A DNA stretch of 64,000 nucleotides from Posidonia oceanica (lineage: Eukaryota > Streptophyta > Magnoliopsida > Alismatales > Posidoniaceae): positions 70,434,001 to 70,498,000 of the forward strand of contig JAZBRS010000075.1 of NCBI GenBank assembly GCA_037176725.1, read 5' to 3'. Both the position numbers and the translations under genes were made by a program. The notes below the pieces were generated by a model. The model ran no database searches and was not told the origin of the DNA. It worked only from the letters and a program-made list of their open reading frames with translations. Of the stretch, positions 13,646 through 35,960 are shown piece after piece (position 1 is the first letter of the stretch; every line of letters begins with the position of its first letter).

Positions 13646-14005
13646 GAAGATGTACCAGGACTTGAAGAGAAATTTCTAGTGACCTGCGATGAAGAGGGAT
13701 GTTGCTGATCATGTGGCAAAGTGTATGACTTGCCAGATGGTCAAGGCAGAGCATCAAAAGCCTGAAGGAACTTTGCAGCCCTTAGACATTCCTGTGTGGA
13801 AGTGGAAACACATATCTATGGATTTTGTGACTGGTTTGCCGAGAACCAGGAGGAAGAATGGCACCGTGTGGGTGATTATGGATCAGCTGACCAAGTTTGC
13901 GCACTTTCTAGCCCTTCGGGTGAATCTCCCTATGCATCGGTTGGCAAAACTATATGTATCAGAGATTGTTCGATTGCATGGTGTTCCTGTGTCCTACATT
14001 AGGAG
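13646..14005 (+). pseudogene. Ty3 integrase fragment (zinc finger and start of core), inverted
   Basis: It reads on from about 13646 with a stop before MKRDVADHVAKC. The end of the HHCC zinc finger (CMTC) is followed by VWKWKHISMDFVTGLP, containing the first catalytic Asp of the integrase core, and a segment ending RLHGVPVS. It breaks just before the second catalytic Asp. The wording is that of Tekay/Del elements and so matches the minus-strand gag-RT piece next door, although it lies on the other strand. Confidence 0.8.
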
Positions 14006-16292
14006 AGTATACTAGCACGTCATCCACAAAAACTACCACAAACTGATCCAGATAGGGCCTGAACACCCTGTTCATCAGGTCCATGAAAGCTGCTGGCGCA
14101 TTGGTCAACCCAAATGGCAAGACCCTGAACTCAAAGTAGCCATACCGAGTCCGAAAAGCTGTCTTCTGAACATCGGACTCCCGAATTAGAAGCTGGTGAT
14201 AACCCGACCTCAAGTCTATCTTGGAGAAGACAGACGCTCCCTGCAACTGGTCAAACAGGTCATCAATCCTAGGCAAAGGGTATTTGTTCTTGATGGTAAT
14301 CTGATTCAGCATTCTATAATCAATGCACAATCTAAGAGTACCGTCCCTCTTCTTGACGAACAAAATCGGCGCTCCCTAAGGAGAAACACTAGGCCGAGTG
14401 AACCCTCTGTCTAGCAGTTCTTGCAACTGACAACTGAGCTCCCTCAATTCAGCAGGTGCCATTCTATATGGGGCCTTCGAAACAGCACCAGAACCAAGCA
14501 CCAAAACTATCTGGAACCCCACCTCCCTATGTGGCGGCATACCAGGTAGATCCTCTGGAAACACATCTGGATACCCACAAACCACTGGTATGTCCTGTAT
14601 CCTCACAGCTAATGAAGAGGACACAGTCACACTGGCCAGGTAGCCCACACTGCCTCTTGCTAAATGGCGGTAGGCCTTCATTGCTGAAATAATCTTCTTT
14701 GGCCCACCAGGTTTAACCCCTTGGACCAAACACCATCCCTGGCCAAGACAATCCGCCAACACAGTCTTCTTGGCACAGTCAATTACAGCTGAATACTGCG
14801 CCAGCCAGTCCATTCCCAATATGACATCGTACTCCCGCATGTCCATAACTATCAGACTGGCCTCAAAGTCCATCTCTCCCAACTTCACACCAATGGACCT
14901 CAGAAACTTCCATACCAGGCTGTGCTCCCCTAAAGGAGTCACCACATCAAGATGAAATGCTAATCTTGCCGGTCTCAAGCCAAGCTCAGCTGCAAATGAC
15001 TCAGATATAAACGAATAAGAACTCCCTGAGTCAAACAAAACTCTGGCCATGTTACCAGCCACAAGAAAAGAACCTGGTAAAGCACAACACAACAACAAAC
15101 CACACCAACATTAATAGGGAAAAGTACTAGATACACACTACAACACTGAGGTCCACAGTACAAATCACTCTCGCTCCTTACCCTCAACAACATCCCCCGA
15201 GGGTCCAGCATCAGGAGCAGCGATGGAAAATACTCGTCCCCTGGTCAGCTGACGAGGTGCATCCCCAGCAGGCTTTGGAGGCTCAAGACAGCTCCGCTGA
15301 ATATGCCCAGTCTTCCCGCAATTATAACATCTCACGGGACCTGGGTTCTGTGGTTTACTGGTGCAATACAAAGCCACATGCCCTGGCTTCCCACACTTGA
15401 AACAGGTTCTTGGACCTCCACTCGAGCCTATCTGGTTGTATCCAGAACTCCCCCTTTCAAAAGAACTGCGTCCCTCCTCAGCAACAGAGTCTAAACGTTC
15501 CTTCCTCTTCTTCCCTGAGCTCCCAGAACTACCAGAGCTCAGCCCACCAGAAACAGAAGGCCGCTGAGAGGATGACTTCCCCTTCACTTTGGGGTGTTCT
15601 TCCAGAAACAGCTTGCGGTCATCTTCATACCTGGCCGCAAGCTCCACAGCATCAGCCAAGGTCGGGCATCTGAAACCCAGAACCCTTGACCGAAGAGCTG
15701 GCACCAACCCTTCCACAAACTTCTTTGCTCGGCGTCTTTCCATGTCAAACACCTGAGCAAACTGCTCCAACCGCGTGAAAGCTGCCTCGTACTCTGCCAC
15801 AGACGTGCTTCCCTGCTTCAAATTCTGGAAGTCCCTATCCAAGCGATCCCGCTCATACTCGGGGAAATACCGCTCATAAAACACCTCCCGAAACTCTTCC
15901 CAAGGTATAGTTAGCAAATCTGCATCAGGAAACTTGAGACGGCGCGCAGACTTCCACTACTGGCTGGCTTCACCTTTGAACTGGAAGGTTGCCAGACGAA
16001 CCCACTTCTCTTCCGGACACTCCAGACTCTACAGGATCTTCTCAACCTCCGAGAGCCAAGACTCTGCATCCTTTGGCTTGCCCTTGCCATCGAAGTTCGG
16101 CGCACCAAGCCTACGAAACTGGGAAATCCATGGGTCACCCTTGGCCTCACTGGAACTGCTCTTTCCAAGCGATTGCACAAGTCCCCGCACCATTTCCCCC
16201 AACTCTTGCCGAACTCCCTTCCAACCGCCCTCATCCTCCAAGCCAGAAATAGATGCAGAAACCTTCCCCTTGCCTTTTCCCTTAGGTGCCAT
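14006..16292 (-). pseudogene. Tekay-like gag, protease and reverse transcriptase (decayed)
   Basis: The start codon at 16292 opens a Lys/Gly-rich gag amino end (MAPKGKGKGK). One frame runs on with TAG stops near 16027 and 15957. Gag ends with two zinc knuckles (CFKCGKPGHVALYC and CYNCGKTGHIQRSC). The retropepsin has DSGSS near 15030 and ILGMDWL downstream. The reverse transcriptase carries [25 protein letters not shown] and the catalytic FVDD near 14030, after a TAG at 14376. It stops at the inversion point, so RNase H and integrase are absent on this strand. Confidence 0.85.
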
Positions 16293-16410
16293 CTAGCTAT
16301 AGCCACAAACAAAAACACGAAACAAAAGATCAGGTGCAAAAACACAAATGGCATAGTCCTACGTAGCCACTAGACCGGACACTACTAAGCTGGAGCACTT
16401 AGTGAACCTA

Positions 16411-16942: not shown

Positions 16943-18358
16943 TGTGGATATGGGGTTTTTGGAAGGTGAGAAGAAGGAGGAGGAGGAGGAGCTTGTTTTT
17001 GCTCTTTTTTGGCTCTTTCCGCTCTTTCTCGGGGTCCCCTTTTTATATCCAACTCCGTCACTCCACGTGTGATGGAATTGGTGTGATCGCCACTCTCGAT
17101 TCACTTTCACCGGCCCTCGAGACGCCTTGGGAGAGATGTGATGTAGTTGCGGGTTCAGCTACCTTAGAACAACGCCAGCGTTGCCCAAGGGTGCTGTGCT
17201 TGGTAAGCTCTTTCTTCCTTCTTCTTCCTTGTATGACAAACGTTAGCAAAACAAAAGAAACAAAGTAATGCAGAGATGGATCAATATGTGTAGTAATTTA
17301 TCCAGAATGAGTAGAAAAGAAAATAACAAAGCATAATGAAATACGTACTCGAGGGGTTTGATCCCCCCGGTTGCAACTAATTAGAGATGTATGCTTAGCT
17401 ATAACAATATATGAACCCAAAATAAAATGCTTGATTATGCTATGGAATTGAACATGTGATATCAGAAATGAAAAGAAAATAAGAATAGAGTCCCCTTTAT
17501 CTATGCACAAAGTGCAAACTGTGTTGACATGAAGCCAACAACGACAAAGGGACACTCAGGCTTTTCGAAGACTCTTTGCCTTTCAAGATCTCTCTTCTCT
17601 CTTTCAATTCTTAAGGACCTCACTTCTCTAGGATTTTTAATCTCAAGAGAACATGTGAATTCCCAAAAATCCTTTTCCTCTCTCAAGATCCCTCCTCTAT
17701 CTGTCAACTTTTCCCCCCATCTATCAATTTTTCCTCCTTGATCCTAGTGGGGGTACCCCTGCTTTTATAGAAGCAGGGGAGGAACAAAAAAAGACACAAA
17801 TGCCAAGTCAATAGAATTCCCTGTTTTAGAAGTGTTATACGTTTGAAAACCAGCGTATAACGTTATAAGCGAGAGTACCCGCGTATAACAACCTCCGAGG
17901 CATAACTGCTAGGATCAAAGAAGATTCTCCAATTAAAGAGTCATTAAGTGTGTTTAAACTCGGCTTTGATGGCTTTGACCGGTCAACATATTCCAAAGAA
18001 GGCAAAAAATGATTTTTGGATTAGGCCAAATATGGAAAGTTCTGGGCTGACTGGGTTGCCACGTTGGATGCTGGAAAACCAACGGCCAATGTTAGCCGCT
18101 AAAGAACCAGCAGCCAACGTTGCACGCTAAGAAGTCAGTGTACAACACCCTCAGTCAACTTGACTTCCAAATTTGGTCAGGACATGAAGAACACACAAGT
18201 TGATGATACTTGGGGCTTAGATAAGGATAACATTATGGACTCGAGAGAAAACATTTGGCTCAAGTGAGACATTCTGGATTGGGCAGAGGGCTTCTAAGAG
18301 CGACCTAATGCAAGAGACTACACTAATATAAAGGAAGTGCCAAAACGGGGTATCTACA
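16943..18358 (-). repeat. 3' LTR of the 24-kb element
   Basis: Plus-strand edges are TGTGGATATGG and GTATCTACA. It is 1416 bp against 1418 bp for the other LTR, and both share the same GGA-repeat, poly-T and CTTTC-rich stretches. On the minus strand a TATA box (TATAAAA, 17763-17769) is preceded upstream by palindromic words (17825-17900) and a second cluster (18060-18150). Confidence 0.9.
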
Positions 18359-18360
18359 GA

Positions 18361-18372
18361 TTGCCCCTCCTT
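18361..18372 (-). promoter_or_regulatory. polypurine tract of the 24-kb element
   Basis: Minus-strand AAGGAGGGGCAA lies two bases before the 3' LTR start TGTAGATACC. It is nearly identical to the tract before the LTR of element A. Confidence 0.8.
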
Positions 18373-18515
18373 GAAGATGGCTTCAGCACGAAGCTATCTA
18401 CAAGGCGAGACGATACCCCCGTGTGGCGCTACCTAGAGATCCTAAATGAAATCCAATGCCTGCTGCCACCAAACTTGGACGGGACACAAAGAAGGTCGGC
18501 TAAAGAAACACGGCT

Positions 18516-18620
18516 ATGGGGATTGCCCAAGGGGAACAAACTAACGACATGCCACGGGGATTGCCCGCGGGGGTCAAACTAAAAGACATGCCACGGGGAC
18601 TGCCCGCGGGGGTCAAACTA
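18516..18620 (+). repeat. short tandem array, GC-rich version of the 43-bp unit
   Basis: About two and a half units containing ACATGCCACGGGGATTGCCC and CGCGGGGGTCAAACTAAA. The unit is a diverged relative of the longer array at 19850-20490 and lies near the 3' LTR. Confidence 0.75.
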
Positions 18621-18876
18621 AAGGGATGGATAGCTAATGATTCCGACGACCACTCAATGCGAATGCAATACAATGCGAATGCAATAAAATGCGCTATGCA
18701 TAGATGCGTGCTGACGGGAATGCAAAAAAGAGGTCATGATATGCAATGCATGACCCTAGGTAATGAGGTTCCTCCATCATCGTCGGATTTAATTTGTATA
18801 CCGGGTTGGCTTAGGAATTTTTCTCACCACCTAAGGTGGACTGACACATGTGTGAATGCAATTTTGCCATGATCAG

Positions 18877-19235
18877 GTACCCTTTCCTTGAGTGTAGCCT
18901 ACACTCTCCCAGGGGACCGTCGTCTCATGATACACGGGTTGGTGAGCGAGAGGTTCATAATGCTACCAAGCAAAAGGGAAAATAATCTCTTTTTTTCAAC
19001 CACATTGGCTCTATTTGTCACAATTAGGTGTCCTTTCATTGAATGTCGCCTACATTCTCGATAGAGACCGTCATCTCGTGACCCGGAATTAATGAACGAT
19101 GAGTCCATCAATACCGTTGGCTTTATTCGTCAGAATCAAGTGTCCTTTCATTAAATGTTGCCTACATTCTTGATGGGGACCATCATCTTCTGACCCAGGA
19201 GTTAGTGAACAGTGGGTTCACTAATACCGTTGGCT
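18877..19235 (+). repeat. three imperfect tandem units of about 110-150 bp
   Basis: Each unit has the order: TCCTTTCATTGAATGT-like start, CCTACATTCT, GACCGTCATCTCGTGACCC-like middle, and a closing phrase about CACTAATACCGTTGGCTTT. The units start near 18877, 19027 and 19138. No protein-like pattern is visible. Confidence 0.65.
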
Positions 19236-19850
19236 TTGCTTTGTTGACCCGGTTATGCTCCGGGGATCTTGCTATTGATTGGTTTTACTTTGTTTGTCCG
19301 GTTGTGCTCCGGGATTTGCTTTGTTTGTCCGGTTGTGCTCCGGGGTTTGCTTTGTTGTCCCGATTACGCTCCGGGGATCTTTGCTTTGGTGTCCCGGTTA
19401 TGCTCCGGGGATCTTTGCTTTGGTGTCCTGGCTATGCTCCGAGGTTCTTTGCTTTGGTGTCCCGGTTATGCTCCGAGATTCTTTGCTTTGGTGTCCCGGT
19501 TATGCTCCGAGGTTTACTTTGTTGTCCCGGTTATGCTCCGAGGATCTTTGCTTTGGTATCCCAGTTATGCTCTGCGGATCTTTACTTTCGTGTCCTGGTT
19601 ATGCTCCGAGGTTCTTTGCTTTGGTGTCCCGATTATGCTCCGGGGTTCTTTGCTTTGGTTTGCTTTGTTTGTCCGGTTGTGCTTCGGGGTATCCACTTTG
19701 ATTTGGTCTGCTTTGTTTGTCCGATTGTGCTCCGGGGTATCCTCTTTGATTTGGTTTGCTTTGTTTGTCCGGTTGTGCTCCGGGGATCTTCTTTGATTTG
19801 GTTTGCTTTGTTTGTCCGGTTGTGCTCCGGGGATCTTCTTTTACAGACTT
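19236..19850 (+). repeat. tandem array of a unit of about 40 bp with CCGGTTATGCTCCG
   Basis: More than a dozen copies of a unit built from CTTTGGTGTCCCGGTTATG followed by CTCCGGGGATCTTTG. Towards the right, units of about 50 bp use TTTGTTTGTCCGGTTGTGC. Because units vary little, all three plus-strand frames stay open for long stretches; I treat those frames as repeat artefacts, not genes. Confidence 0.85.
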
Positions 19851-20490
19851 ACCGAGGAGATTGCCCAAGGGGGTCGAGAATAAAAACATGACATGCCAAG
19901 GAGGATTGCCCAAGGGGGTCAAAAATAAAACCTGACATGCCAAGGGGATTGCCCAAAGGAGTCAAAAATAAAAACATGACGTGCCAAGGGGATTGCCCAA
20001 GGGGGTCGAAAACAAAAACATGACATGCCCAAGGGGGTCGAAAATAAGAACATGACATGCCAAGGGGATTGCCCAAGGGGGTTGAATATAAGAATATGAC
20101 GTGCCAAGGGGATTGCCCAAGGGGGTCGAAAATAAGAACATGACGTGCGAAGGGGATTGCCCAAGGGGGTCGAAAATAAGAGCATGACGTACCAAAGGGA
20201 TCGCCCAAGGGGGTCGAAAATAAGAATATGACGTGCCAAGGGGATCGCCCAAGGGAGTCGGAAATAAAACATGACGTGCCAAGGGGATTGCCGAAGGGGG
20301 TCGAAAATAAAAACATGACGTGCCAAGGGGATCACCCAAGGGGATTGCCCAAGGGGGTCGAAAACAAGAACATGACGTGCCAAGGGGATTGCCCAATGGG
20401 GGTCAAAAATAAGAACATGACGTGCCAAAGGGATTGCCCAAGGGGGTCGAAAATAAAAACATGACGTGCCAAGAGGATCACCCAAGGGGG
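19850..20490 (+). repeat. tandem array of a 43-44-bp unit containing TGACGTG
   Basis: About 14 copies of a unit made of ACATGACGTGCCAAGGGGAT followed by TGCCCAAGGGGGTCGAAAAT. About ten copies keep a TGACGT core (for example near 19980, 20098, 20230, 20274, 20319, 20372, 20420 and 20462); the others have TGACATG. The long minus-strand open frames here (repeating DPLGQSPWH) follow from the periodicity. The array ends about 100 bp before the motif cluster of the first antisense gene. Confidence 0.85.
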
Positions 20491-20594
20491 TCGGAAAGAA
20501 TACTTCTTTGGCTTTGCTTGCTTTGTTGGCCTGGTTGTGCTCCAAGGCTTGCTGATCTGCTCTCAATTCTGCTTTGACTTATTGGATGCTTGAT

Positions 20595-20772
20595 TGTTAG
20601 CGTTCAACGTTGGACGGCTAAAGCACCGCGGGTAACATTGGACAGCATTGTAGCTACGTATAACGTCGCGAGACAGACTGCTGTCTTTCCTGTTCGGGCA
20701 CCACCGTTTTGGCAATAAATCTCTGATTTTCTTTGGGTTTCCATTCTGATGAAGGCTCCACGGCCTATATTA
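20595..20772 (+). promoter_or_regulatory. putative promoter of antisense PMD gene 1
   Basis: A cluster of palindromic words (CAACGTTGGACGG, GGTAACATTGGAC, CGTATAACGTCGCG) at 20595-20690 is followed by a weak TATA-like box TATATTA (20766-20772). The first in-frame ATG of gene 1 is at 20862. The same word cluster plus TATA layout precedes genes 2 and 3. Function is inferred from position and recurrence. Confidence 0.5.
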
Positions 20773-20861
20773 ATCCCCCTCTTGGCATGGATCTTGTACT
20801 TCAAACACTTATCTTCCTTTCTTTATTGATTTTTTGCTTGCTAGGGATTGTGCTTCTCCTC

Positions 20862-22221
20862 ATGGATTTGAGTGATATTCCATGCCATGCCTTCCAAGTG
20901 GCCATCTTTTCCTCTCCTTCTGACATGGTGCAACTCTGGCTGGAGGCCATACCTAACCATTTGGTGAACCTCTTGGTGCATGAGAAGGTACTCTCTGTTT
21001 TCATCATCTCCCCATACTCCTATTCTCGTATTTCTTTATCTCTGCTGATTTTTTCTTATTTCATAGCCCCTATCCTCTGCCAACAACAACCGTGACTCGA
21101 AAGCCTATCAGTTGGACTGGGTTCAACAATTCCGCTCTTGGGCTTTGAAGAGGTATCGGGAGCGTTTGGAAGAGGCTGGTCTTTGTCAAGCTCTTCGCCT
21201 GTTGCGGCAGCCTGTTGACTGGAAGGTGCTTTTCGGCCTTTGCGGGCTGTGGAATCCTTTAACCCACACGTTCTTTTCCTCTTCAGGGGAAATGACCATT
21301 CTTTTGGAGGAGGTGAGCGCCCTTTTGGGTACTCGACAGGGTGACCCATCCATTTACTGCAGGGATGCCTACCTTTTGCCAATCGGGGTGGTAGGCTCTT
21401 TTTCTCTTTTAAAGCGCATTTTTGGCTCCGTTGTTGTGTCGGAAAATCTGGTGCTAGATGGCTGTATCAAACTCTCCTCCTTGTGGAAATTCTTCTAGAA
21501 ACAGCGTGACAGCATCCGCTTTGAGGCTTCCTGCTTGGAATGTGTCTTTATTCTGATCAGGGGACTAGTGCTCTTTCCGAATGAAGCTCTGACCATTAGC
21601 ACCTACCATGCTGAGCTCATGTGCATCTGCGTTCGCAATCTGGAGAAATGCTTGAGTCAGTCTGTTTTGGCTTTCACCATCTGGGGCTTATCCAGTGCCT
21701 GCATTGGGAGACCATTCTTCGACTCACCGTTCCTAATTCTGCGCTGGTTGGAAGAGCATTCTCTTCTGCCTGCTCTTGATGCTAGCCTTCCCTTGGAGGA
21801 GTACATTCGCCGTCTATGCGCTTGCGAGGTCAAATCCCAGATGGACTCCTTCAGTCCTCCCTCGTCTTTCAGGATAGTGTCTAACCCAGAGTACTTCCTG
21901 ACGCTGATTGGGGCGACCGAGTTTGTGAGGTACAACCCTCAGCGATGCTTCTCGATGCTGGGTACTCCTCGGGCTATACCTCCCTTGCCTCATTTCTTCA
22001 ACATGATTCTCCCGCACTTGAGAGACACCCCTGGGGGCATTATCCAGGTCTTTTATCAGGCTGATACTTGGGACGGGAAGGGGTGGAACCGAGTCCTTTC
22101 TGCATGAGAGAACTCGAACGCGGACCGCGAAGCCATCTCTCTTGCAACTTATGACGCTTGGTACAAAGGCGTGCGGCCTAAGTTCTTCATTGAATTTCCT
22201 TTAAAAAGACAAGAAATGTAG
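20862..22221 (+). pseudogene. antisense gene 1: PMD-type protein (two exons, decayed)
   Basis: Exon 1 is 20862-20987, the intron 20988-21066 (GT...AG, phase 0), exon 2 21067-22221. The protein would be about 385 residues. After an amphipathic amino end (LWLEAIPNHLVNLLVHEK) comes the segment LCGLWNPLTHTFFSSSGEMT plus LLEEVSALLG, the signature region of the plant mobile domain (a W-x-PET-HTF, EMT-x-TLEDV type pattern). Two in-frame stops interrupt it: TAG 21496-21498 and TGA 22105-22107; the frame then continues to TAG 22219-22221. A polyadenylation-like AATAAA lies at 22245-22250. It is a diverged paralogue of gene 3. It lies opposite to gag-pol, inside the retrotransposon. Confidence 0.75.
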
Positions 22222-22359
22222 TTAGAAATGTATCATTTATCATCAATAAAATTTATTTCGTCTCTTTGGACTCTTTTGAATGAATTTGTATGGGTTGAAA
22301 TGAAAGCATCAGAATTCAGAACACTTCCCTGAACTTAAAGCATTGTACACTGAAATTGG

Positions 22360-22504
22360 AGCGACCAACGTTGTACGCTGGAAAACCAACGGCTAACGTT
22401 TTAACTCTCAAAACGTTGGACGCACCATAGGACGCATATAACATTCCTTCTCCCCGAGGTGTTGGACGTGGCAATTCACGCGGATAACGTTGAAAAGTAT
22501 AAAA
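22360..22504 (+). promoter_or_regulatory. putative promoter of antisense PMD gene 2
   Basis: The palindromic words CAACGTTGTACGC, AACGGCTAACGTT, AAAACGTTGGACGC, GCATATAACATTC and GCGGATAACGTTG crowd 22360-22495, ending three bases before a good TATA box (TATAAAA, 22498-22504). The phrase GCTGGAAAACCAACGGC is also found in both LTRs of the element (near 18068 and 40871), linking this promoter to LTR sequence by descent or shared function. Confidence 0.6.
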
Positions 22505-22610
22505 CCCTCGTCCTACGCTACGGTGGTCATCTGCTTCTCTTTTCTTCTTGTTCTCCGGCACCAACGAGCTCTCCGGCGATCTTCCCTCTTATTCTGGCAA
22601 GATTACTCTG

Positions 22611-25600
22611 ATGGAGAAGAGGATTTCTCACTTCTACACCCAGACGGCGAAACAGGCTCGGACGGGGCCTTCGCCCTTCGGCGAGCCTTCGTCGGAGGCG
22701 CCAACAGTCGGCCCAACTGTGGAAAAGGCGGCGGCGAGGGCTGCGGAGGCCGCCGGCGAGGCTGCGGCAGGCAGTGCTGAGCCTACGGGAGCTGGTGCTG
22801 CGGCTGTGGAGGCGGTGGTCGGTCGAACTGCGGCTCGAACGGCGCTTGGGGAGGCTGTGGCCAGGGTGGCTGAAGCTAGGATGGTGCCTGGGGAGGCCGA
22901 GGAGGCCGGTCGGATTGCGGCGGAGGTAGCGGAGGCTGGTGGTGACGCCACAGGGCCTGAGGCGACGAAAACAGGGGTTGCCGGTGGTGGTACCACGAAG
23001 GCTGAGGTGGCGGGTGGTGGTGATGCTGTGGAGGCTGAGGCGACGGCCAGCAGCGATGCCGCAAAGACTGAGGCAACTTCCGGGGAGGCCGTGGAGACTG
23101 AGGTGGAGGTGGACTCTAGTTCTAACAGCTCCTTTAGCTACGAGGACTCAGAGGAGACGATCTCGGAGACAAGGCCCGAGGCTGGCTTGGATGAGGCGGG
23201 GCCTGCGGAGGTGCCAGAGGCAAGGCCGGTCGACCCCTTCCTCGCGCGGTTTGGCGAGGACGACGGCTAGTGGCAGAACATGGTCGACTTCGTTCGACGG
23301 GAGGCGAAGGGCGTCGCAAGGGATCCCCCGGACTACTGGCGGAGCAGATCCCTCGGGACGAGGTGCAGGCGTCGGGACTGCGTAGGGACGCGTCTCGATC
23401 GGAGTATGTCACTGCCACGCTAGCTTCGAGGGGGCAGGTAGATTTTATTTTCCCTTCAGTTTATTCAGTTACTTCAGCTTGACTGATGATTCCCTCGTTT
23501 GTTTGCAGAGTCGAGCACCGACCGTGACCTGTTGTTACTGGGGTCAGGTCCACCGGTCCTACGTCCTGTTGGCTACTTTCCAGCAGGAGCGTCTGAATCA
23601 GATGGGATTTGGGTACTTTCTGTCCATCCCGGACTTTCCCCTCCATTCGATGTTCTTGGAGACTGTTGCGGAGCGGTGGAACTTCCGCACGAGCTCGATC
23701 GTCACGAGGGCGGGCGAGTTTGTCCTCTCCCTTGAGGACATGGTGCGATTGACCAGTCTTCAAGTCACAGGCCGACCAGTGACGGGGCGGGTGCGCTTGG
23801 GCTATTCAGCTTGTTGGGCGGCAGCTAACCATGAGCGGGGAGCAGCTTGTGGTGATCAGCTCTGCGGTCCGCCGAGTCAGTGAGTTGGCGGAGACGGTGG
23901 CTGGACCGAGGATGGAGGTTGACCAGCAGCTGCGGGCTTTCCTCTTAATGCTGTTCGGGGAGGTGCTCTTTTCGCACTTCTCGAAGTTGTCGGCATGGTT
24001 CCTCCCTCTTTTAGCGGATTTGTAGCGCGTGGGAGAGTATGCCTGGGGCGCGGCCAACTTGGCGCACCTGTACTCCACCCTCTTCCGCTTTACTGATGCC
24101 AGTTCTCGCCAGCTGGGCGGGAACCTGCCATTCCTTCAGGTAAAATCTGCATATTTAAGCTTGCATTGGATATTACATTCTTGCTAACAGCTTCCTTGTT
24201 TTGCATGCAGATGTGGGCGTGGGACCACTTTACTTTCCTGCGTCCTGCCCCTCCTCCAGTTCCTCCGACCGGTATCCCCTTCCCACGGGGACTGTTCTGG
24301 GCTGCTGCTGAGTAGGCCCTCGAGCCCGTAGATGACAACCGCTATGTCAATCGTCTGCTTTTCGAGCTCCTTGTCCTGGCTCAAGTAACTTGCTTCTTTT
24401 AATTTCAGCTTCTGTTTATTTATTTATGCTACTTGCTGACATGCATTGCTTCTTTCAGGTGGTTTGGCGTCCATATGCTGAGGGAGAGCATGCGGACGTC
24501 CCTGAGATTACACGTGATCGGGCCATTTTCGACCGGGACGTATGGATCCACTGCTGGAACCACTGCCACTTCCAACAGATTGGCAGGACGCTACGACAGT
24601 TGGGGCGCTGGCAGATTCAGCTTCTACCTCCTCCTCACCGAGTTTGGCGAGAGACACGTGGTGGGGGTAGCCGTGCTTGTCATTGGGTGGACGTCTACAG
24701 TCCACAGCTCTTGGACTGGGCTCGTCGTGGTTCTCCTGCTCCGACGGATGCCATAGAGGAGGACGAGGCAACATGGGCCAAGTGGATAGACCGGGAGTTC
24801 TCTTCTTTAATGATCTTTCACCGGTCCCACTTCCTTGGGCGCGAGAACCTTCCTTTGGGGGACACAGATCCCGAGGAGGCAGTGGTGTCCCGTGCGGCCC
24901 TACTGGAGGAGGTTCAGTCTTCCCGAGCCCAGCTGGAGATAGCGGTGAGCTTCTGAATTTTATTTTGTAGACTGTTGATTCAATTTGGCTGACTTGCTTT
25001 CTTTCTTCTACAGCTCAAGGCGGCGGATGAGCGGGCTCAGCAGGAGCACCACTTGACCCAGCAGCTCTCTGTTCTGACTGGGGAGATTGATCGCCTGCGT
25101 GCCTCTACCTCTCAGGTATCTTTGCATGTAGCCTTTATAGTCTGACTATGAATTGTAACTGACTTGAATCCTTCTTTTCAGCCTTCGACCAGTAGTGCTC
25201 CTCCCCCAGGCCACTCAAAGGAGATTTCCCATCTCCAGGAGAAGGTAAACATGCTTTTACTTTATTTCTGCTTTTAAAATTCCCTTGGTCCTGACACCAT
25301 TGCTTGTAGATTGCTTATTTGGAGAGCGAGCTGAGGGAGCAGGCTGGTGACTTTATAGCTGCCAGCTCTGTCGGGAGGTTGGTGGAGCTGGAGGGGACAG
25401 TCGCCGCTAGCAGCGCTCGGATTCGGGAGCTGGAGCAGTAGGTTGCTGATAGGGACGCTGAGATTGCCCAATCTCAGGTAGTATGATTTAATTCAGCGCT
25501 CCTTTATGTCTTTCATGTCTTTGCTTGTATCTGACATTTTGGGTTGCTTCTCCTCTTAGGGCACGGCAGGGGTTATCTCCCAGCTTGAGCTTGAGCTTGG

Positions 25601-25808
25601 GCACTACCGGAGGTTCGCCTTTTCAACTGGTGCCAGGCTCGGGGTGCCTGTTCCTTCCGTACCGAGCCGCCGGTCAAGTAGCCACCATTCTCGGTCTGTC
25701 TCCAGGGCTCCGTCAGGCGTTTCGGTTCGGCAGTCGCCTCGTCCCCCTACTGCCCCTTCTCCGGCTCCTGCTTCAACTCCTGAGGATGAGGGAGAGAGTG
25801 CTCCTTAG
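22611..25808 (+). pseudogene. antisense gene 2: eight-exon PMD protein with coiled-coil tail (lightly decayed)
   Basis: Exons: 22611-23437, 23509-24139, 24211-24384, 24459-24944, 25014-25115, 25182-25244, 25310-25477 and 25560-25808. All seven introns are 65-82 nt, GT...AG and phase 0. The protein begins with an Ala/Glu/Gly-rich acidic region (exon 1). The plant mobile domain is in exons 2-4: ERLNQMGFGYFLSIPDFPL, ERWNFRTSSIVTRAGEFVLS, DMVRLTSLQVTGRPVTG, then LRAFLLMLFGEVLFS and VGEYAWGAANLAHLYSTLFR. Exons 5-7 are heptad-like and rich in Glu, Leu and Gln (coiled coil). Exon 8 is Ser/Pro-rich. Damage: TAG at 23268, 24023, 24313 and 25439, and one net frameshift in each of exons 1 and 2. A related host family is MAIN/MAIL1; whether this copy was taken from the host is inference. 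Confidence 0.8.
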
Positions 25809-26289
25809 CTTTTGTACTTCAGGGGTATGCCCCGGCGACCTTGTAGAACAACTGTATATTTTGAAATGATATAGATTTTTGCACACTCAGTAAACTTGTC
25901 AAATACTTCTTTTAAATTACCTTTCCCAAAGCTAAAATGAGGTTAAGCGACCAGTATGGTAAAATAATGGCCCTTAATCCAAATTAACTTGAAACCAGCA
26001 TATTCAAGTGAAATAGCATGTAAATGACATAGTTATAAGGAGAGATTCCACCTGGAAGCTTAAAAATTGAATTTTGAAGTCGTCGATGCCTTAACGAGCC
26101 ATTTACTTGATGAAATGAACAACCAGAGATTCCGACTAGCCCGGATGTCCAAAAAAATATTAAACCAACGCTCACACGCATCTTTCACCTTGGTTAAACT
26201 ACGAGGGCGGGTAAAACCGGTTCATGCAACTCAATCATGGATTAGGGGACAGTCCAGCCAAGTTCAGCAACTTAAGTAACTGATAAAAT
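25809..26289 (+). other. intergenic stretch between antisense genes 2 and 3
   Basis: The 3' flank of gene 2 has no canonical AATAAA; AATGATATAG near 25865 is the nearest candidate. The remainder is unremarkable AT-rich sequence. Open frames on either strand are short and show nothing recognisable. Confidence 0.5.
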
Positions 26290-26538
26290 GTTATACGCCT
26301 CATCTGCTGTGGCCAACGTTATCTGCTTCAAATTCTGCGTCCAACGCCGGTAGCTGATCTAAACGTTATACGCTTCAAATGGCGCGGCTAACGTTGGACG
26401 CTCTCTGTTTCGCGTACAACGAAGCGAGCCCAGAAACTTTTCTTCCCTTTTCTGTTCTTGGCTAATCTTCCGGAATACTGTGAAATTTTCTCAATGCCCG
26501 CGTGAAGGATTTCCGACGGCCCTCCTGTGCTTATAAAA
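26290..26538 (+). promoter_or_regulatory. putative promoter of antisense PMD gene 3
   Basis: The words GTTATACGCC, CCAACGTTATC, GCGTCCAACGCCGG, AAACGTTATACGC, GGCTAACGTTGGACGC and GCGTACAACG occur between 26290 and 26425. A strong TATA box (TATAAAA, 26532-26538) follows about 110 bp later, and the ATG about 100 bp after that. This matches the layout at genes 1 and 2. Confidence 0.6.
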
Positions 26539-26635
26539 GCCTTGCCACCCCTTGTATTTTCATGCATATTTGCCCCTTTCCTCCCTACTGATATCTTCTT
26601 GATTTGTGCTTTCCCCTTTCCTTTCTTTTGCTTTC

Positions 26636-27981
26636 ATGGCTTCTAGTTCAGTTGCCAATGTCTACATGCACAACAAGAAGGGAGTTGCAAAACCTTTGGA
26701 AGAAATTGAAGGGCATATGATGTCCCTTATCAAGACGGAGAAGGTATGATCCTCTTTATTGGTCTTTTCCCTCTCCTTTGCTTCTCATGCTTTCGAATTT
26801 CTTTGCAGGAAATCCTCAATTTTACCAAAACACATTGCTTTGATAATGACTTCCCCTACTACTCCACTTGGGTGAAGGACTTTGTACTTTGAGCTCGAGA
26901 AAGGAAATCTGTTTTGGCCCATACACGCTTTGACAGACTTTTGGATTTATTGGATACAAACTTGGACTGGCCCCTGCTTCATGCCTCATGTGCCTTTTGG
27001 AGTCCTGAGACTCACACTTTCTTCTTTGGGGGTTGTGAGGCGACAATCCTAGTAGAGGATATTCATGGCCTGCTTGGTGTGACTCAGATTGGAGCGGCCC
27101 AGCCAAATATTGACTTCCCATTGCCATATGGAACAGCAGATATGCAAACATTCACAGACCGTATCTTCACGCTTCCGCCTACCTTCCCAGTGATTAGAGG
27201 TCGCAGGCTTAACTTGGCACATCTGTATTTCAGCTTCCGACGGATTGAGGACTCTTCCTCTCAGGATCAGCTGTTGGTGTGTCCGCATTTACTGATTAGA
27301 GGCCTCACTTTATTTGTCACCAAGGATTTCTCCTTGGATGTCTATCACACCGAGTTCCTGATAGGCCTTACTGAGCACTTCTGGCATTCTCCTTCAGTTG
27401 CCATTCTTGCCGCTACATATCTGGGCCTGACCAACGTTTCCACCGGAGGGGATTTTGTTGGCTCTCCTTTCCTTCTTTCGAGGTGGCTAGAGGTCCACTT
27501 CCCGAGGCTTGGGCCTGTGAAGACAGATTTGATCGAGAAAAGGGTTTGCTCTTTGTCCTCTACCTCTATTGATATCTCCATGCCTTCCACATCCTTTTGT
27601 CACAAGCACCAGGCGCGAGGCTCCTCAGTTGAGTTGGAATTGATAGGGCCCACCCACTTTGTAGTGTACAACTCTCATCGCTGCTTCGAGATGGTGGGGC
27701 AGAAGAAAGGGGTGCCACCTCGACTAAGCTTTATTCCTCGTATTCGGGTTCGGGAGCGCAGTCTCCCATCTGATGCAGTAATGGTGTACCACATCCGGGC
27801 TCTTTGGTCGTCTCTGGATCGCCCTAATGGTTTAGAGGGACCATCAGTTGCTCCTTCGACTTGCTGCCTACCACGGGAGGATGCGCATTGGAAGTGGTAT
27901 TCAAAGCTACCACCCAAACCCAAGGAGTGGGTTGAAGCAACGGGCGTGCTATGCAGGAAAAGGAAGAAAATGATTAGATAG
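26636..27981 (+). pseudogene. antisense gene 3: PMD-type protein (two exons, one stop)
   Basis: Exon 1 (26636-26743, 36 codons, MASSSVANVYMHNKKG...) is joined by a 65-nt phase-0 intron (26744-26808) to exon 2 (26809-27981). The only damage seen is TGA at 26890-26892; otherwise it is open for about 425 codons. The signature FWSPETHTFFFGGCEATILV plus EDIHGLLGVT is the plant mobile domain core; further phrases (LLIRGLTLF, DVYHTEF, SPFLLSRWLEVH, HFVVYNSHRCFEMVG) align with gene 1. The carboxy end is Lys/Arg-rich. An AATAAA signal lies at 28032-28037. Of the three antisense genes this copy is the least damaged. Confidence 0.8.
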
Positions 27982-28149
27982 GCAATTATTGTATCTTTTA
28001 TTTTTTTAGGAATCATGTATCTTTTCAAGGGAATAAATATATATTTCATTTTTCATCCTTATTCATGTGTTTTGGACTGTTCTGAGTTTAGAAATACTCC
28101 CTGGTGGCTTTGATATTTGATTAAGGGCCCCTTTTCCACATTCTGCAGT

Positions 28150-28290
28150 TTAAGTCACAGTTAAAATGTAAGACGCTCAATCTGGCACTTATAACGTAAG
28201 ACGCATGATATCACGCGTCCAACGTCCCTCTGTTGATCGTTATATGTTTCAAATGGTGCGTCCAACGTTGGACGCTGATTTTTGCTCGTT
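28150..28290 (+). promoter_or_regulatory. palindromic word cluster without an obvious gene
   Basis: Contains GTAAGACGC, ATAACGTAAGACGC, CACGCGTCCAACGT and GCGTCCAACGTTGGACGC, the last a perfect 18-bp palindrome (about 28260-28277). No TATA box or reading frame follows on the plus strand within 500 bp. It could belong to a lost gene or serve another purpose. Confidence 0.5.
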
Positions 28291-28749
28291 TAATGCTCCT
28301 GAACTGTTTCCTGCATTACCTCAGCAAATTTGTTAGTTCATCTAGGGATATTATTGCCCATAGTCCAAAGTGACCTCTGAAAACTTAGAAATATCCTTAA
28401 CACTGTGAAATCAGCATGGTTACAGAAAATCTTGGTAATGACCTATATACAATGCATACTTTAAGCAAACCTAATGCTATGAATGGGAAAGAAGTCTTAA
28501 TGCAATGGGGGGGTTAAGGGAAACTTAGGTTTTGAATAACAAGTATTGGCCTCAGCTTTATTTTCTAAAGATGATATGCCAGACGATGGACTGTCTCTTC
28601 TCGAGATCCCAGTCTTAGCTCGTAGGCGAATACCAAGCGACCGTCCCGAATAGGAAGGGTCGAGTACGACGTGGAGTCGTAAAATGTTATAGATTTTTGC
28701 ATCACTGGCCTTACTTGTTATCAGTTTCATGAGATGATGTTGGTTGGGT

Positions 28750-29010
28750 AGGTTTAACCCTACTCATTATTTTTTAATTTTTTGTTTTTTCATTTTTTTT
28801 TGGATTTTTGGTTTTATCATTGTTTGGATTTTTGATTTTATCATTTTTTGGATTTTTTATTTTTATGATTTTTTTAGAATTTTGACTTTATCATTTTTTT
28901 GGATTTTTTATTTTATCGTTTTTTTTTTGATTTTTTATTTTTATGATTTTTTTGGATTTTTTACTTTATCATTTTTTTTGGATTTTTTGGATTTTTATGG
29001 GAGACAAAGA
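28750..29010 (+). repeat. T-rich low-complexity tract
   Basis: Runs of TTTTTGGATTTTT and ATTTTTATGATTTTTTT. The long plus-strand open frame across it (Phe/Ile/Trp repeats) is a composition artefact. On the element's own strand it is A-rich and lies between integrase and the antisense genes. Confidence 0.7.
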
Positions 29011-29795: not shown

Positions 29796-30918
29796 CTAGG
29801 GATATTCAAGCCTAGTGCCATCCTCTCTAGCCAAACAATAGGCATTTCCCGGATATGCCTCAACCACCAAGTATGGTCCTTTCCAATTTGGTCTCAGTTT
29901 CCCATGCTTGCGAGGAAGGATTTCTTTAAGCACCCATTCACCAATATTGAATTTACGTTCAATTACTTTCTTCTTATATACTCTTGCAAGTCGTTCTTGG
30001 TAGAGGCGTGCATGCTCAGCTGCTTGCAACCGTTTCCCATCTAGCAAATCCAACTGTAGACTTAATAATTGCCTCTTATTCTCGACAGTTATCTTATTGT
30101 CGAGTTGTATCCTTGATGAGGGGACCATGACCTCAAATGGGACTACCGTTTCCATACCATAAGTAAGTGCGAACGGGGTTTGACCCGTAGGCGTTCTTAT
30201 GGAGGTTCAATAGGCCCACAAGGTATCAATTAGCTTATCTGTCCAGTCATGTCCCTTGATTCCTCCTACCGTTTTCTTAAGGATTCAGATTAACATTTTG
30301 TTAGTAGCTTCAGCTTGCCCATTACCTTGGGGGTAATATGGCGATGAATGATGCAATTCAATCTTAAACTTCTTACAGAGCTTTTTGAAGTCCTGGGATA
30401 CGAAGAATGCACCATTTTCTGCTACTAATTTCTTTGGGATCCTGAACCTTGAGAGGATATTTTTCCGCACGAACTTGCAAAGATTTGAAGCTTTGATTTC
30501 AGTGAACGCTTCTACTTCAGCCCATTTAGTGAAGTACTCAGTGGCTGTGAGGATGAACCTATTCTGCTTCTCGTTGTCAAATGGTCCCACGACATCAAAT
30601 GCCCACATAGAGAAGGGCCACACCGCTTGAGTCAGATTCAGCTCTGATGCTGGTGCATGTATTCTGTCTGCATGGATCTGGCACTGCCTGCACCTTCTCA
30701 CCTTATTTGCACAATCTGCCTCCAATGTGGGCCAGTAGTACCCCCCTGCGTAGTATCATTTTTGCCATAAATTGAGAGTTGATGGGTCCTCCGCATATGC
30801 CTTCATGTATTTCTCCGATGATAACTTCAAGCTCCTCATATGTGACACAACGCAGCTCTATTCTGCTGAAAGACCTTTTGAAAAGGATCCCGGCTCTCAT
30901 GAAGTATCTTGTGGCCAT
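29796..30918 (-). pseudogene. integrase
   Basis: The zinc finger keeps the CRQC pair but is split by a frameshift at a C6 run near 30740, and the expected second His reads Pro (GGPINS). The core has MWAFDVVGPF (first Asp), AENGAFF where DNG is usual (second Asp replaced by Glu), and YYPQGNGQAEATNK (Glu). The carboxy domain (30155-29796) ends with a GPY/F-type word WKGPYLV. No chromodomain follows. Confidence 0.8.
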
Positions 30919-30984: not shown

Positions 30985-31963
30985 CTAGATGTCAAAGAAC
31001 CATGGGTTCCCGTCATCCTCTATGTTGTAGCAAACTTCAAACATGCCTACCCTTGATTCCCCAGCTTTCTGTCTAAGCTCCACGGCCCATGGCTCAGTTG
31101 AGTCAATGGCAGGCATCCCGTGTTGCTGAACCATTATTGTTTCCTTCCGGATATTGATTGGGAACTCGATTGAGGAAGCCAGCGAAGCGAGAGCATCCAC
31201 CAGTAGGTTATCACTCCGGAGGGTGTGGACATATACCACTTGTTGAAACCGTGCTAATAGGAGGCGAGCAATACCTTTGTATTCTTCGAGCCTTGGATTG
31301 AGGGTCCTGTACTTGTTCAGAATTTGTCTTAGGACCAATTAGGAGTCTCCAATGAGTTTCAACCGCTTTGCCCTAGCTCCAGTGCTAGGCGTATTCCGAG
31401 GATCAAGGCCTTGTATTCTGCAACATTGTTGGTACTTGCGGCGAAGTTTAGCTGTACTGCTCGAGGAATGAGAACTCCTTCTGGAGTGAGAAGTGCTACT
31501 CCAATGCCTGCCCCTTGTCTGTTAAATGCTCCATCAAAGTAGAGAGTCTATTGTCGAGTGGGAGACTCGGTGGCCTATATTTCCAGTATTTCCTCATCGG
31601 GAAAGTCTATTCAAACTAGTTGATAATCTTCTATTGGTAGTTCTGCCAGTGATCTGCAATGACTTGCCCCTTGACCGCCTTCTGGGACACATATTGTAAG
31701 TCAAATTCAGTGAGGAGGAGTTGCCACCTTGCCAATCTTCCAGAGAGGGCTGGCTTCTCGAACATATATTTGATTGGATCCATCTTGGTGATGTAACAGA
31801 CTTTATGGGCTAGGAAGTAGTGTCTCAACTTTTGAGATACCCATACCAAGGCCAAGCAGTGCTTTTCTATGGCTGTATACTTTTCTTCATAACCCAAGAA
31901 AGTTCTACTCAGATAGTAGATAGCCTTTTCCTTCTTTCCATCCTCATCATGTTGAGCTAACAC
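30985..31963 (-). pseudogene. RNase H followed by a second, plant-type RNase H
   Basis: First RNase H 31963-31631 (AIYYLSRTFLGYEEKY, LARWQLLLTEFDL). The second is at about 31545-31100, with LYFDGAFNRQGAGIGVALLT at its start and NNVAEYKALILGIRLALE after it, giving the Asp and Glu of an archaeal/plant-like RNase H. This tandem arrangement is diagnostic of the Tat lineage. A stop near 31340 breaks the second domain. Confidence 0.8.
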
Positions 31964-31969
31964 TACCCT

Positions 31970-33009
31970 ATCGATGATGCAGTGACTGCCACGTAAAGTA
32001 GTAAGGGCTTTCCTGACACAGGTGCTGACAAGACTGGGGGGGTCATGAGATATGCTTTGAGTTTATCAAAAGCTTTCTGGCATTTCTCATCCCAAGTGAA
32101 TTCCCTTCCTCCTTTCAGTAACTCATAAAATGGCTTACATCGATCTACATGCTGTGAGATGAATCTCCTAATGAACAGTAAGCGGTCGATAAGTCCCCTG
32201 AGTTCCTTGACGTTTCGGGGTGGAGGCATTTGTGCTATTGCTCTGGTCTTCTGTGGGTCCACCTCGATCCCTCTTTTGTTGATGATGAAACCCAGTAGCT
32301 TCCCGGTAGTTACCCCGAACACACATTTCTTTTGGTTCATTTTTAACTGATATTGCCTTGCCCTGCTCAGTACCCTTCTTAGTGCCTCAAAGTGTGCCTC
32401 CCTTATTCTTGATTTGACCAGGATATCGTCAACATACACTTACATGCAATCATGCATCATGTCGTGGAAGATGGCCATCATTGCTCTCTAATATGTCACG
32501 CCAGCGTTTTTGAGACCGAATGGCATGACTACATAGCAGTACGTCCCCCATGGTGTGATGAATGACGTCTTATCTTGGTCCTCCTCTACTAGCTTGATCT
32601 GGTTGTAACCGAAGAAGCCATCCATGAAAGATAGCATCTCGAATCCTGCTGTATTGTCCACTAGCAAGTCAATATGTGGCAAAGGAAAGTCATCGTCGGG
32701 ACAAGCGGCGTTGAGGTTGCGATAGTCAATGCAAACCCAAACCTTCCCGTCCTTTTTGGCTACTGGTACTATATTTGAGACCCAACTGGGATACACGACC
32801 ACCTTGATGAACTTCGCTTTATAGAGTTTGTCGATTTCATCCTTAACTTTTAGGGCGAGTTCCAGCCTTAGTCGTCTTAGCTTCTGCTTGACGGGTTTGG
32901 TTCCAAAGTTTAGCGGAAGCAGGTGTTCCACTAGGGCTGATTGTAGACCAGGCATATCCTCGTACTTGAAGGCCAGCACATCCACAAATTCTTTCAAAAT
33001 TTGGACCAT
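31970..33009 (-). pseudogene. reverse transcriptase of the Tat lineage
   Basis: Recognisable blocks in order: VYPSWVSNIVPVAKKDGKV, CIDYRNLNAACPDDDFPLPH, DNTAGFEMLSFMDGFFGYNQ, ITPWGTYCYVVMPFGLKNAG, and the catalytic YVDDILVKS near 32430, then thumb phrases (GFIINKRGIEVDPQK). Two stops interrupt it (32488 TAG, where Gln is usual, and one next to YVDD). The wording is that of Tat/Ogre elements. Confidence 0.85.
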
Positions 33010-33041
33010 TTCCTCCCGCTCTTCTAGGCTCAGGTTTGCAC

Positions 33042-34142
33042 TTATGAGTATTGGTTTTGCCTCAAGTGGACCTCCACGGTCTCTTCCTCAGCTGCTTTGG
33101 TTTGCTCATCATACTTGTCCATGAGGTGCTTAAGGAGGTCTGAGTCGGCCTCTTGATCATCTTCCTCATCATTGCAGTTAACCAGCTCATATGCCTCCAT
33201 TCCTGCACACTTCCCAAACTGATTAAATTCTTCTACTAGGAAGACCATGTTAGCAGTAGCCAGCTCCTGAGGCAATGCCTCCGTGTATTAACACACGCGC
33301 ACAATTTTGGAAGCGGTGGTCGAAGTTGACCGCGAACTGCTACAACTAACATGGTGATCAACTCCCTTATTGAAAGTAGAAAGTAAACTACTTTTATTCT
33401 TAGGAAATGAAAACAATGCGGAATTAAACAAAGTTTTATTTACAGCATCTAGGGGGATGCCCCTAGAGTTACCTCCATCAGTAGAGATAGGAGCCTTTCT
33501 AGGTGGACTCGTCATGGTCGACGTTCCCACCATCTTCGAGAAACTCATGGTCGGCCCCTGCATCGGGGTCAACTTCAGATCTCTGAGGTTGCAGACCTTC
33601 AGAGAGATCAGCCATGAGACGGCGGACCCTATCTACGAGTCGTTGCGACTTGCGTAGAGTTTGCCCCGGCCTTTGCTCCAAAGAGGAAGAGATGTTCGGA
33701 ACTGGAGGAGGCGGAGGCTTGGAAGCGACGGTGCCGGAAGAAGAGGGAGAAGAAGAAAGAGGTGGCCGATCCGGAGGCTTAGAGGCGGCGGTACCGAAAA
33801 AAGAGGGAGAAGAAGAAAGAGATGGCCGATCTGGAGGTTCGGGGGCCGGTGCGCCTAACAGTGGTGGCGGTGATGTTGCAGTTTGGCCTTCGTGAGGTTT
33901 TGCTGGCAACTCTTCTACAGTCTGACCTTCGTGAGGCTCTGCTACTACAGTCTAGCCTTCGTGAGGCTCTACTGTCAACTCCCTTGCAGTCTGACCTTCG
34001 TGAGGCTCTGCTGGCAATTCAAGTGTTTGGAATAAGTCAGAAATGTTTACGTCGGCTGTGTCCTCTGCACTTTGGAGAGTGTATTTGGTTGATTGCGCCA
34101 AAATAATATTTCTCAGGGGGGATGAATTCGGGTCGAATATCC
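33042..34142 (-). pseudogene. linker between G-patch and reverse transcriptase
   Basis: The part next to RT is acidic (NCNDEEDDQEADSDLL). The middle has Pro/Ser repeats (33614-33895; SSSPSFFGTAASKPPDRP-like units) and a short repeat of TGACCTTCGTGAGGCTCTGC at about 33880-34020 on the plus strand. A frame change occurs somewhere here. No catalytic domain is visible. Confidence 0.55.
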
Positions 34143-34466: not shown

Positions 34467-35099
34467 CTAGTGCAGCAGGTATATTACATTTGCCTCTACT
34501 TCTTGGCCTGGTATGTCCCCTGCTATCTTGATGATTTTCCCATTATGAGGGAATTTCAGACATTGGTGCCGAGGAAATGATACTCCTTTTAAACTGTCCA
34601 GCCATTGCCTCCCCAGGATGATCTGATATGGGACATTGATGTCTATGATGATTAGTTGAGTTAGAACCTGAGCTGGCCCTATCCCTATTTTTGTAGTCCA
34701 CTTGCCGTGTGCTTTTCTTTTGCTGTTATCATACCCGGCAATCTTCATATCAATGAGGGTTAAGGATGCCTCATTTACGCCCAAGGCTCGTATTGTATTT
34801 AACGAGCAAATGTTCATTGATGCACCGGTATCTATGAGCACTTCAGAAATTAAGTGATTGTTTATAGAAATGGTTACATTCAATGGTGCTTTTCTCCTCT
34901 CTATTGGCGCCAACTCGCAATCAGCGAAGGTAATGATAAGTTCTACAAAGGCTGCTGTAGCTATAACATGGAGTTCCTTTGCTGGCATATCTAGGGCGAC
35001 TTGGGCCTTCTCTAGCACCTCTTGCAGAGCTTTCCGGTGTTGATTTGAGCTATTTATGAGATCATAGATCGAGATCCTGGCCTGCGTCTTCTTTAACTA
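34467..35099 (-). pseudogene. retropepsin 2 (aspartic protease)
   Basis: Upstream phrase ARISIYDLINSSNQHRKAL, common before the protease in Ogre/Tat polyproteins, then LIDTGASMNICSL and IILGRQWLDSLKG. The frame is open from the stop at 35097 to TAG 34467. All key protease residues are present. Confidence 0.8.
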
Positions 35100-35584: not shown

Positions 35585-35960
35585 CTAGAATGCTGACGAC
35601 GCTCCTTGGTATTTGAATTTTAGCATTTGATGAATCAAAGATGCTACAGCCTCGACCTCTGCTAGCCAAGATCTTCCTAGGATGAGTGGCTCCAGGACTT
35701 CCTCCTTCATGATGATCACCAAGGTGACACTGGTCAAAGGACCGACTGTGATTTCCATGGGCATTGTCCCTAGTGCCAATTTCTCCTTCTAATCAAACCC
35801 AGTGCACATAAAGGGAGTTCTATCTAGCTTACCCTCATTTAGCCCTAAGCTCCAGAGTGTGGAGAGAGAACTGAGGCTTCGGCTTGCTCCAGTATCAACC
35901 AATACTCCCTGCAGCACGTGATTGTTGATGCCCACTGTGATGACAAGTGGCAGCTCTTGC
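35585..35960 (-). pseudogene. retropepsin 1 (aspartic protease)
   Basis: Active-site motif LVDTGASRSL near 35884 and the partner motif LILGRSWL near 35670, in the same frame apart from a TAG at 35789. The size and spacing fit a single retropepsin monomer. It precedes a second complete retropepsin about 750 bp downstream. Confidence 0.75.

Follow-up and report, generated by a model that had tools for sequence, protein, structure and literature searches.

Why would a retrotransposon carry three intron-bearing genes on the strand opposite to its own coding sequence? The question is raised by a locus of Posidonia oceanica, for which the window analyzed here is a stretch of 64,000 nucleotides (assembly GCA_037176725.1, contig JAZBRS010000075.1, positions 70,434,001 to 70,498,000); all coordinates below are those of the window. 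It contains a long terminal repeat (LTR) retrotransposon of 24.2 kb on the minus strand (16943-41161), and between the integrase and the 3' LTR of this element lie three plus-strand genes (20862-27981) whose predicted proteins resemble the plant mobile domain (PMD). An initial annotation, made from the letters alone, had proposed that the element could be a transporter of spliced genes. We consider it fairly probable that the locus is a Tat element with antisense, intron-bearing PMD genes of its own, in which an 18-bp palindrome would act as an operator common to the element and the genes.

Three antisense genes in a Tat-lineage element

The element is complete in the sense that it is bounded by two LTRs, as the initial annotation had it. 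Its termini are TG...CA, a 5-bp target duplication (AACGA) lies outside both LTRs, and a primer-binding-site-like TGGCGATCATGG is found three bases past the 5' LTR. The LTRs are 95.4% identical (63 differences in 1,416 aligned sites; Kimura two-parameter distance of 0.046). At the rates of 1.3e-8 and 7e-9 per site per year used for LTR dating, the insertion would be 1.8 and 3.3 million years old, respectively, figures that are indicative only.

Profile searches of stop-free pieces placed the gag-pol domains in the order gag-protease-reverse transcriptase-RNase H-integrase, with gag and several of the smaller matches under curated cutoffs, including the weak MLVIN_C and SH3 matches of the integrase C-terminal piece (29799-30206). 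An additional RNase H (aRH) lies between the RNase H (31634-32062) and the integrase core (30288-30755), a position that marks the Ogre and Retand clades of angiosperm Tat elements (Neumann 2019, PMC6317226). On the position of the aRH and the domain order, the element belongs to the Tat lineage of Ty3/gypsy and is most likely of the Ogre type within it. Two protease-like DTGAS stretches at ~35.9 kb and ~34.9 kb possibly reflect a duplicated protease or a recombinant (34470-35096, 35792-37645), and tandem repeats form two arrays, of 34-bp and 44-bp units, between gene 1 and the 3' LTR (19230-20500).

The gene models contain nine predicted introns, one in gene 1, seven in gene 2, and one in gene 3, and all nine are GT-AG, in phase 0, and 65 to 82 nt long, in agreement with the short introns and the eight-exon gene first described. 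Intron GC content is 0.32 to 0.40 versus 0.43 to 0.67 for exons, and intron T content is 0.39 to 0.51. The TATA-like box initially reported for each gene is present 96 to 113 bp ahead of the three ATGs (Table 1), and TATAWA occurs additionally at 28038 and 28444.

All three genes are interrupted in this copy. The gene frames contain 7 stops in 1,748 codons versus 139 in 3,468 codons when these exons are read in their two other plus frames, a tenfold-lower density per codon; for two gene 2 segments behind apparent frameshifts, the frame with the fewest stops was chosen, which slightly favors a low count. A simulation of neutral decay at the LTR-derived rate, with insertions and deletions left out of the model, predicted 3.7 new stops on average (95% range, 0 to 8). 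The observed seven fall within this range, and therefore the three genes may well have been intact when the element inserted. The interruptions, the broken gag-pol, and the palindrome arrays ahead of each gene had been missed by the initial annotation.

For domain assignment, the three genes were cut into seven pieces, this copy being broken, and scanned with Pfam profiles. PMD (PF10536) was matched by four pieces, one per gene at E values of 1e-7 to 4e-7 and a second gene 2 piece at an E value of 0.12, all four under the curated cutoff. Gene 3 also matched DUF7745 just over the cutoff; a sequence search of PDB with gene 3 returned nothing convincing (best E value, 0.03).

Genes 1 and 3 share 33 to 38% identity and an intron position after a Glu-Lys pair, and their promoters align from the array to near the start codon with a score of 94 (maximum of 200 shuffles, 56). 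By these alignments, genes 1 and 3 are paralogues. Pairwise alignments of the sequences 3' of the genes did not score above shuffles.

A palindrome common to the LTRs, the leader, and the gene promoters

The palindrome, GCGTNNAACGTTNNACGC, was first spotted by eye ahead of each gene, often spaced at exactly 28 bp. Its half-site, AACGTTNNACGC, was counted on both strands with the two halves of one palindrome taken separately. With at most one mismatch there were 34 half-sites in the window versus 1.6 expected, and the largest count in 100 shuffles was 5. The element holds 28 of them, distributed over the LTRs (7), the 5' leader (7), the DNA upstream of genes 1, 2, and 3 (2, 4, and 4, respectively), and an array at 28.2 kb (4). 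At the same threshold, no half-site was found in the 14.3 kb of exons, introns, and gag-pol or in the interval 18359-20598. A separate search for near-palindromes with the same arms found 15 in the window versus 1 in 20 shuffles together; 9 have an AACGTT core, and 9 lie in the element, including one without the core inside pol (33281).

When up to two mismatches were allowed, 18 pairs of neighboring centers in the element were exactly 28 bp apart, compared to none in each of 30 shuffles; two of these pairs recur in the second LTR and hence are not independent. Among window-wide neighbor spacings of up to 60 bp, 28 bp accounted for 18 of 27. The spacing occurs in nine blocks of the element (eight when the two LTRs are taken as one), and every block but the one at 28.2 kb is LTR, leader, or gene-upstream DNA. 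The arrays have a CpG observed/expected ratio of 1.7 versus 0.62 for the element, but the palindrome itself contains CpG, and the excess therefore shows no more than that many of the sites have escaped decay.

Such arrays could be functionless products of tandem-repeat expansion, an explanation that denies the operator and leaves the ownership of the genes untouched. The element is indeed rich in tandem repeats (the 34- and 44-bp units at 19.2 to 20.5 kb), and adjacent 28-bp units share spacer identity (43%). Palindrome positions are nevertheless more alike than spacers, at 55% versus 43%, although the sites were picked by motif, which favors that result, and the confinement of the 28-bp spacing in nine blocks to LTR, leader, and gene-upstream DNA, bar the 28.2-kb block, also speaks against expansion. 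We regard this explanation as unlikely.

Next after the arrays comes TATAAA for genes 2 and 3, the same hexamer (on the minus strand) for the LTR, and TATATTAA for gene 1. The sense and antisense promoters thus share one layout, and the palindrome common to the LTR, leader, and gene promoters ties the genes to the element. This arrangement suggests a common operator for the element and its genes.

It also bears on where the genes came from. Capture of host PMD genes as cargo, the transport proposed by the initial annotation, would account for introns and promoters of their own, which resemble those of host genes, and PMC11963269 mentions transduction by LTR elements, with Bs1 as an example. 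Against it, only Gypsy elements encode proteins of the PMD-A1/A2 clades (PMC5418596), to which the present genes may belong, PMD is found in the extra open reading frames (ORFs) of 57% of Ogre elements (PMC6317226), and the gene promoters carry the element's own motif. Because genes 1 and 3 are paralogous with alignable promoters and the motif is common to all three genes and the LTR, we favor accessory genes owned by the element over cargo transport, which we consider very unlikely. Independent nested insertion of PMD-bearing DNA transposons or host genes into an ordinary element has a precedent in the PMD of MULE transposons (PMC9289625, PMC5418596), but the genes lie on one strand, share the motif of the LTR, and are not surrounded by terminal inverted repeats. 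Nine inverted pairs were found in 20500-28800, of which five were array matches and four were short (20 to 27 nt, 74 to 81% identity). We consider nested insertion extremely improbable.

A further alternative leaves the genes with the element but makes the palindromes sites of a host transcription factor, with the PMD proteins unrelated to them; it overlaps our reading and denies only a role of PMD products at the palindromes. The AACGTT core resembles the "T-box," an ACGT-core site of plant bZIP proteins, and a dimeric bZIP suits palindromic ACGT-core sites. A host factor would fit the placement of the arrays, which precede a TATA-like box both in the LTR and in front of every gene, as well as similar sites at 8.8 to 11.0 kb in an apparently different element. 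The exact 28-bp phasing, together with the conservation of the GCGT/ACGC arms, is more than an ordinary bZIP site would call for, although a bZIP could still be involved. We hold this alternative to be possible but rather doubtful.

The array at 28.2 kb resembles that of gene 3, with 28136-28289 aligning to 26258-26415 at 67% identity (E value, 5e-15). It could mark a lost fourth gene, for which alignment gave no support: a candidate PMD remnant at 28.3 to 28.7 kb, picked by eye because a short part of it resembled the final part of gene 2, scored 60, within shuffles (maximum of 200, 71).

Elsewhere in the window, 8300-11310, which ends in TGTAGACACCCC on the minus strand, is probably an LTR of another element; it holds a perfect palindrome at 10954, the variant GCGTCTTACATAAGACGC at 9508, and a 29-bp spacing near 10.9 kb. 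The palindrome family may be shared between elements. The minus strand at 13959-16354 encodes gag, a zinc knuckle, and protease of an apparently different Ty3/gypsy element. Among ten flank ORFs scanned, the clearest host gene was represented by pieces of a GH3-family gene (49174-50657).

Table 1. Coordinates of the element, its antisense genes, and the palindrome arrays in the window
Feature	Position	Strand	Remarks
Gene 1, PMD-like	20862-22221	+	Exons 20862-20987, 21067-22221; stops at 21496, 22105
Gene 2, PMD with coiled-coil-like tail (judged by eye)	22611-25808	+	Eight exons; four stops (23268, 24023, 24313, 25439); at least two apparent frameshifts
Gene 2, exons 1-4	22611-23437, 23509-24139, 24211-24384, 24459-24944	+	
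Gene 2, exons 5-8	25014-25115, 25182-25244, 25310-25477, 25560-25808	+	
Gene 3, PMD/DUF7745-like	26636-27981	+	Exons 26636-26743, 26809-27981; stop at 26890
Array upstream of gene 1, 28-bp phased	20600-20668		TATATTAA at 20766
Array upstream of gene 2	22361-22492		TATAAA at 22498
Array upstream of gene 3	26287-26424		TATAAA at 26532
Fourth internal array	28165-28276		No attached gene
5' leader arrays	38239-38279, 38652-38670, 39416-39456		Between 5' LTR and gag
5' LTR arrays	40634-40698, 40863-40931		Upstream of LTR TATA box
3' LTR arrays	17832-18130		Same arrays as in 5' LTR
3' LTR	16943-18358	-	TATAAA near 17764, minus strand
5' LTR	39744-41161	-	TATAAA near 40567, minus strand
gag ORF	35792-37645	-	Retrotrans_gag E 4e-4, under curated cutoff
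Aspartic protease piece	34470-35096	-	gag-asp_proteas E 2e-6
Reverse transcriptase, two pieces	31966-33087	-	Interrupted frame; RVT_1 E 3e-8, 4e-9
RNase H	31634-32062	-	RT_RNaseH E 8e-23
aRH, broken pieces	30988-31547	-	RVT_3 E 5e-7 on 31362-31547; 30988-31338 weak, under cutoff
Integrase core and C-terminal pieces	29799-30755	-	rve E 2e-10 on 30288-30755

Relatives of the genes in other sequences

A database of 5.8 billion proteins contained one relative of a gene 3 piece, 9 of a gene 1 piece, and 13 of gene 2 exon 4, all from ENA contigs of 0.5 to 2.4 kb. Covering relatives have an open frame at three of the seven stop positions (21496, 22105, and 24313); the remaining four positions were uncovered. 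Ten of the 13 relatives of gene 2 exon 4 reach the exon end in frame (P0013, P0017, and P0023 do not and were excluded from the donor count), and all 10 run past one and the same exon edge into the intron and stop there after three residues, with the GTN codon of the donor kept in 9. In P0023, 22 residues beginning with V and ending with Q separate the exon 3 and exon 4 parts, which matches the expectation for an unspliced 66-nt intron 3 of gene 2. Judged from these fragments, relatives retain the frames and the edges of two predicted introns.

In P0006, a start like that of gene 1 is fused to an end like that of gene 3, and at the point of the junction genes 1 and 3 of the window share a 58-bp block of 76% identity. 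The simplest of several readings would be that genes 1 and 3 follow the same order in a further copy, where a deletion has brought them together.

Two collections that are not of plants gave no relatives: IMG/VR for gene 3 or P0002, and bacterial and archaeal genomes for gene 2 exon 4. Three IMG/VR contigs contain one exact palindrome each, which we judged to be chance, with no further one-mismatch half-site in the fetched stretch.

A putative self-regulated cassette and its place among known systems

In the mechanism that we propose, the three genes would be transcribed on the plus strand from their own TATA promoters and then spliced. The introns of an antisense gene are not recognized in sense RNA and hence survive reverse transcription. 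The introns here would likewise be kept in the sense genomic RNA, in which their splice signals are reversed, and the cassette would be copied via reverse transcription; the initial annotation had argued for this passage, and while the antisense orientation of the genes is plain, the passage itself is a general principle whose operation here is predicted. With less certainty, a dimer bound at each palindrome may coregulate all three antisense genes together with the promoter of the LTR. Least surely, one or more PMD products might act via the palindrome to activate or unsilence the element. In that tentative extension, to which we give considerably less credence than to the account up to the operator, PMD products would act on the palindromes, in their own promoters as well as in the LTR and 5' leader, as a self-regulating anti-silencing or control regulon, whose intron-bearing genes survive by being antisense.

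Several observations weigh against this reading. This copy of the element is dead, as the gag-pol frames are broken at several places, and transcription and splicing of the genes are predicted. We saw no second copy of the element, and the recurrence of the cassette elsewhere is traced through protein fragments only, one of which (P0011, the tenth relative in the donor count) lacks the GTN donor codon. The best PMD piece of each gene scores 30.0 to 31.6 bits, whereas the Pfam gathering cutoff is 34.9, for pieces of a broken copy; three of the seven gene pieces match no Pfam family; and among six relatives scanned for families, four had no match, one matched PMD weakly, and one matched DUF7745 weakly. 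The gene 2 promoter scores 56 against that of gene 3, at the edge of the shuffle range (maximum, 55), and 51 against that of gene 1, not above the shuffle maximum of 51. The 28.2-kb array has no gene downstream, 6 of the 34 one-mismatch half-sites lie outside the element (8.8 to 11.0 kb), and two-mismatch half-sites occur in coding DNA, at 22146 in gene 1 and at 31899, 37227, and 37853 in gag-pol. Finally, binding of the palindrome by PMD products is putative and speculative.

Ogre/Tat elements with PMD-bearing extra ORFs were reportedly treated by Steinbauerova in 2011. The present element is like them in its aRH between RNase H and integrase, its extra ORFs, and its PMD domain; it differs in having three PMD genes, nine predicted introns, and phased palindromes, none of which are mentioned in the passages of PMC6317226 consulted. 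Retand elements generally carry antisense ORFs downstream of pol; the role of the antisense proteins is called unknown, and a regulatory one is proposed (Vicient 2025, PMC11963269). A long region from pol to the 3' LTR that holds tandem repeats as well as antisense ORFs is a likeness to Retand, but it measures 2.9 to 6.6 kb there versus ~11 kb here, the common Retand domain is Transposase_28 (TRP28 ORFs), and the terms PMD and intron occur 0 times in the PMC11963269 text. The exceptional character suggested by the initial annotation is less well supported, as PMD ORFs in Ogre and antisense ORFs in Tat elements are already known and the kind is not new. Titles and abstract beginnings among the literature matches listed mention neither introns in antisense PMD retrotransposon genes nor such phased palindromes. 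The palindrome shared by the LTR and three antisense genes is apparently new, although novelty in print is not proven.

The closest functional parallel is VANC of the VANDAL transposons, an element-encoded protein that binds short motifs in the noncoding DNA of the element and causes methylation loss (Hosaka 2017, PMC5735166; Sasaki 2023, PMC10398659). Both systems pair an accessory protein encoded by the element with short motifs repeated in its noncoding parts, here the 28 half-sites with at most one mismatch. VANDAL is another kind of transposon, its motif YAGTATTAY is not palindromic, and binding has been shown for VANC, whereas our case is built on sequence. VANC is therefore put forward as a functional analogue, with no claim of family membership, Pfam having named only PMD and DUF7745 for the three genes. 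Perhaps the locus is a coregulated antisense accessory cassette with an anti-silencing function like that of VANC. Among host proteins, MAIN and MAIL1 (PMD-C) act in the silencing of transposable elements and in gene expression (PMC5418596, PMC7156037), and a promoter motif is found in many of the genes that depend on them (PMC7156037); MAIN and MAIL1 share the PMD domain with the present proteins but are host genes, as opposed to element-encoded ones. In tea, phased small interfering RNAs arise from PMD genes (PMC10673657), and such genes are thus also targets of host control.

The shared palindrome array is the part of this locus most worth following. With the motif standing before the LTR and every antisense gene, the function of the antisense ORFs of Tat elements becomes a question that a binding assay could address. 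Artificial antisense-intron reporters are used for measuring retrotransposition, and the intron-bearing antisense genes described here are a natural counterpart of them, whose introns should persist through copying of the sense RNA.

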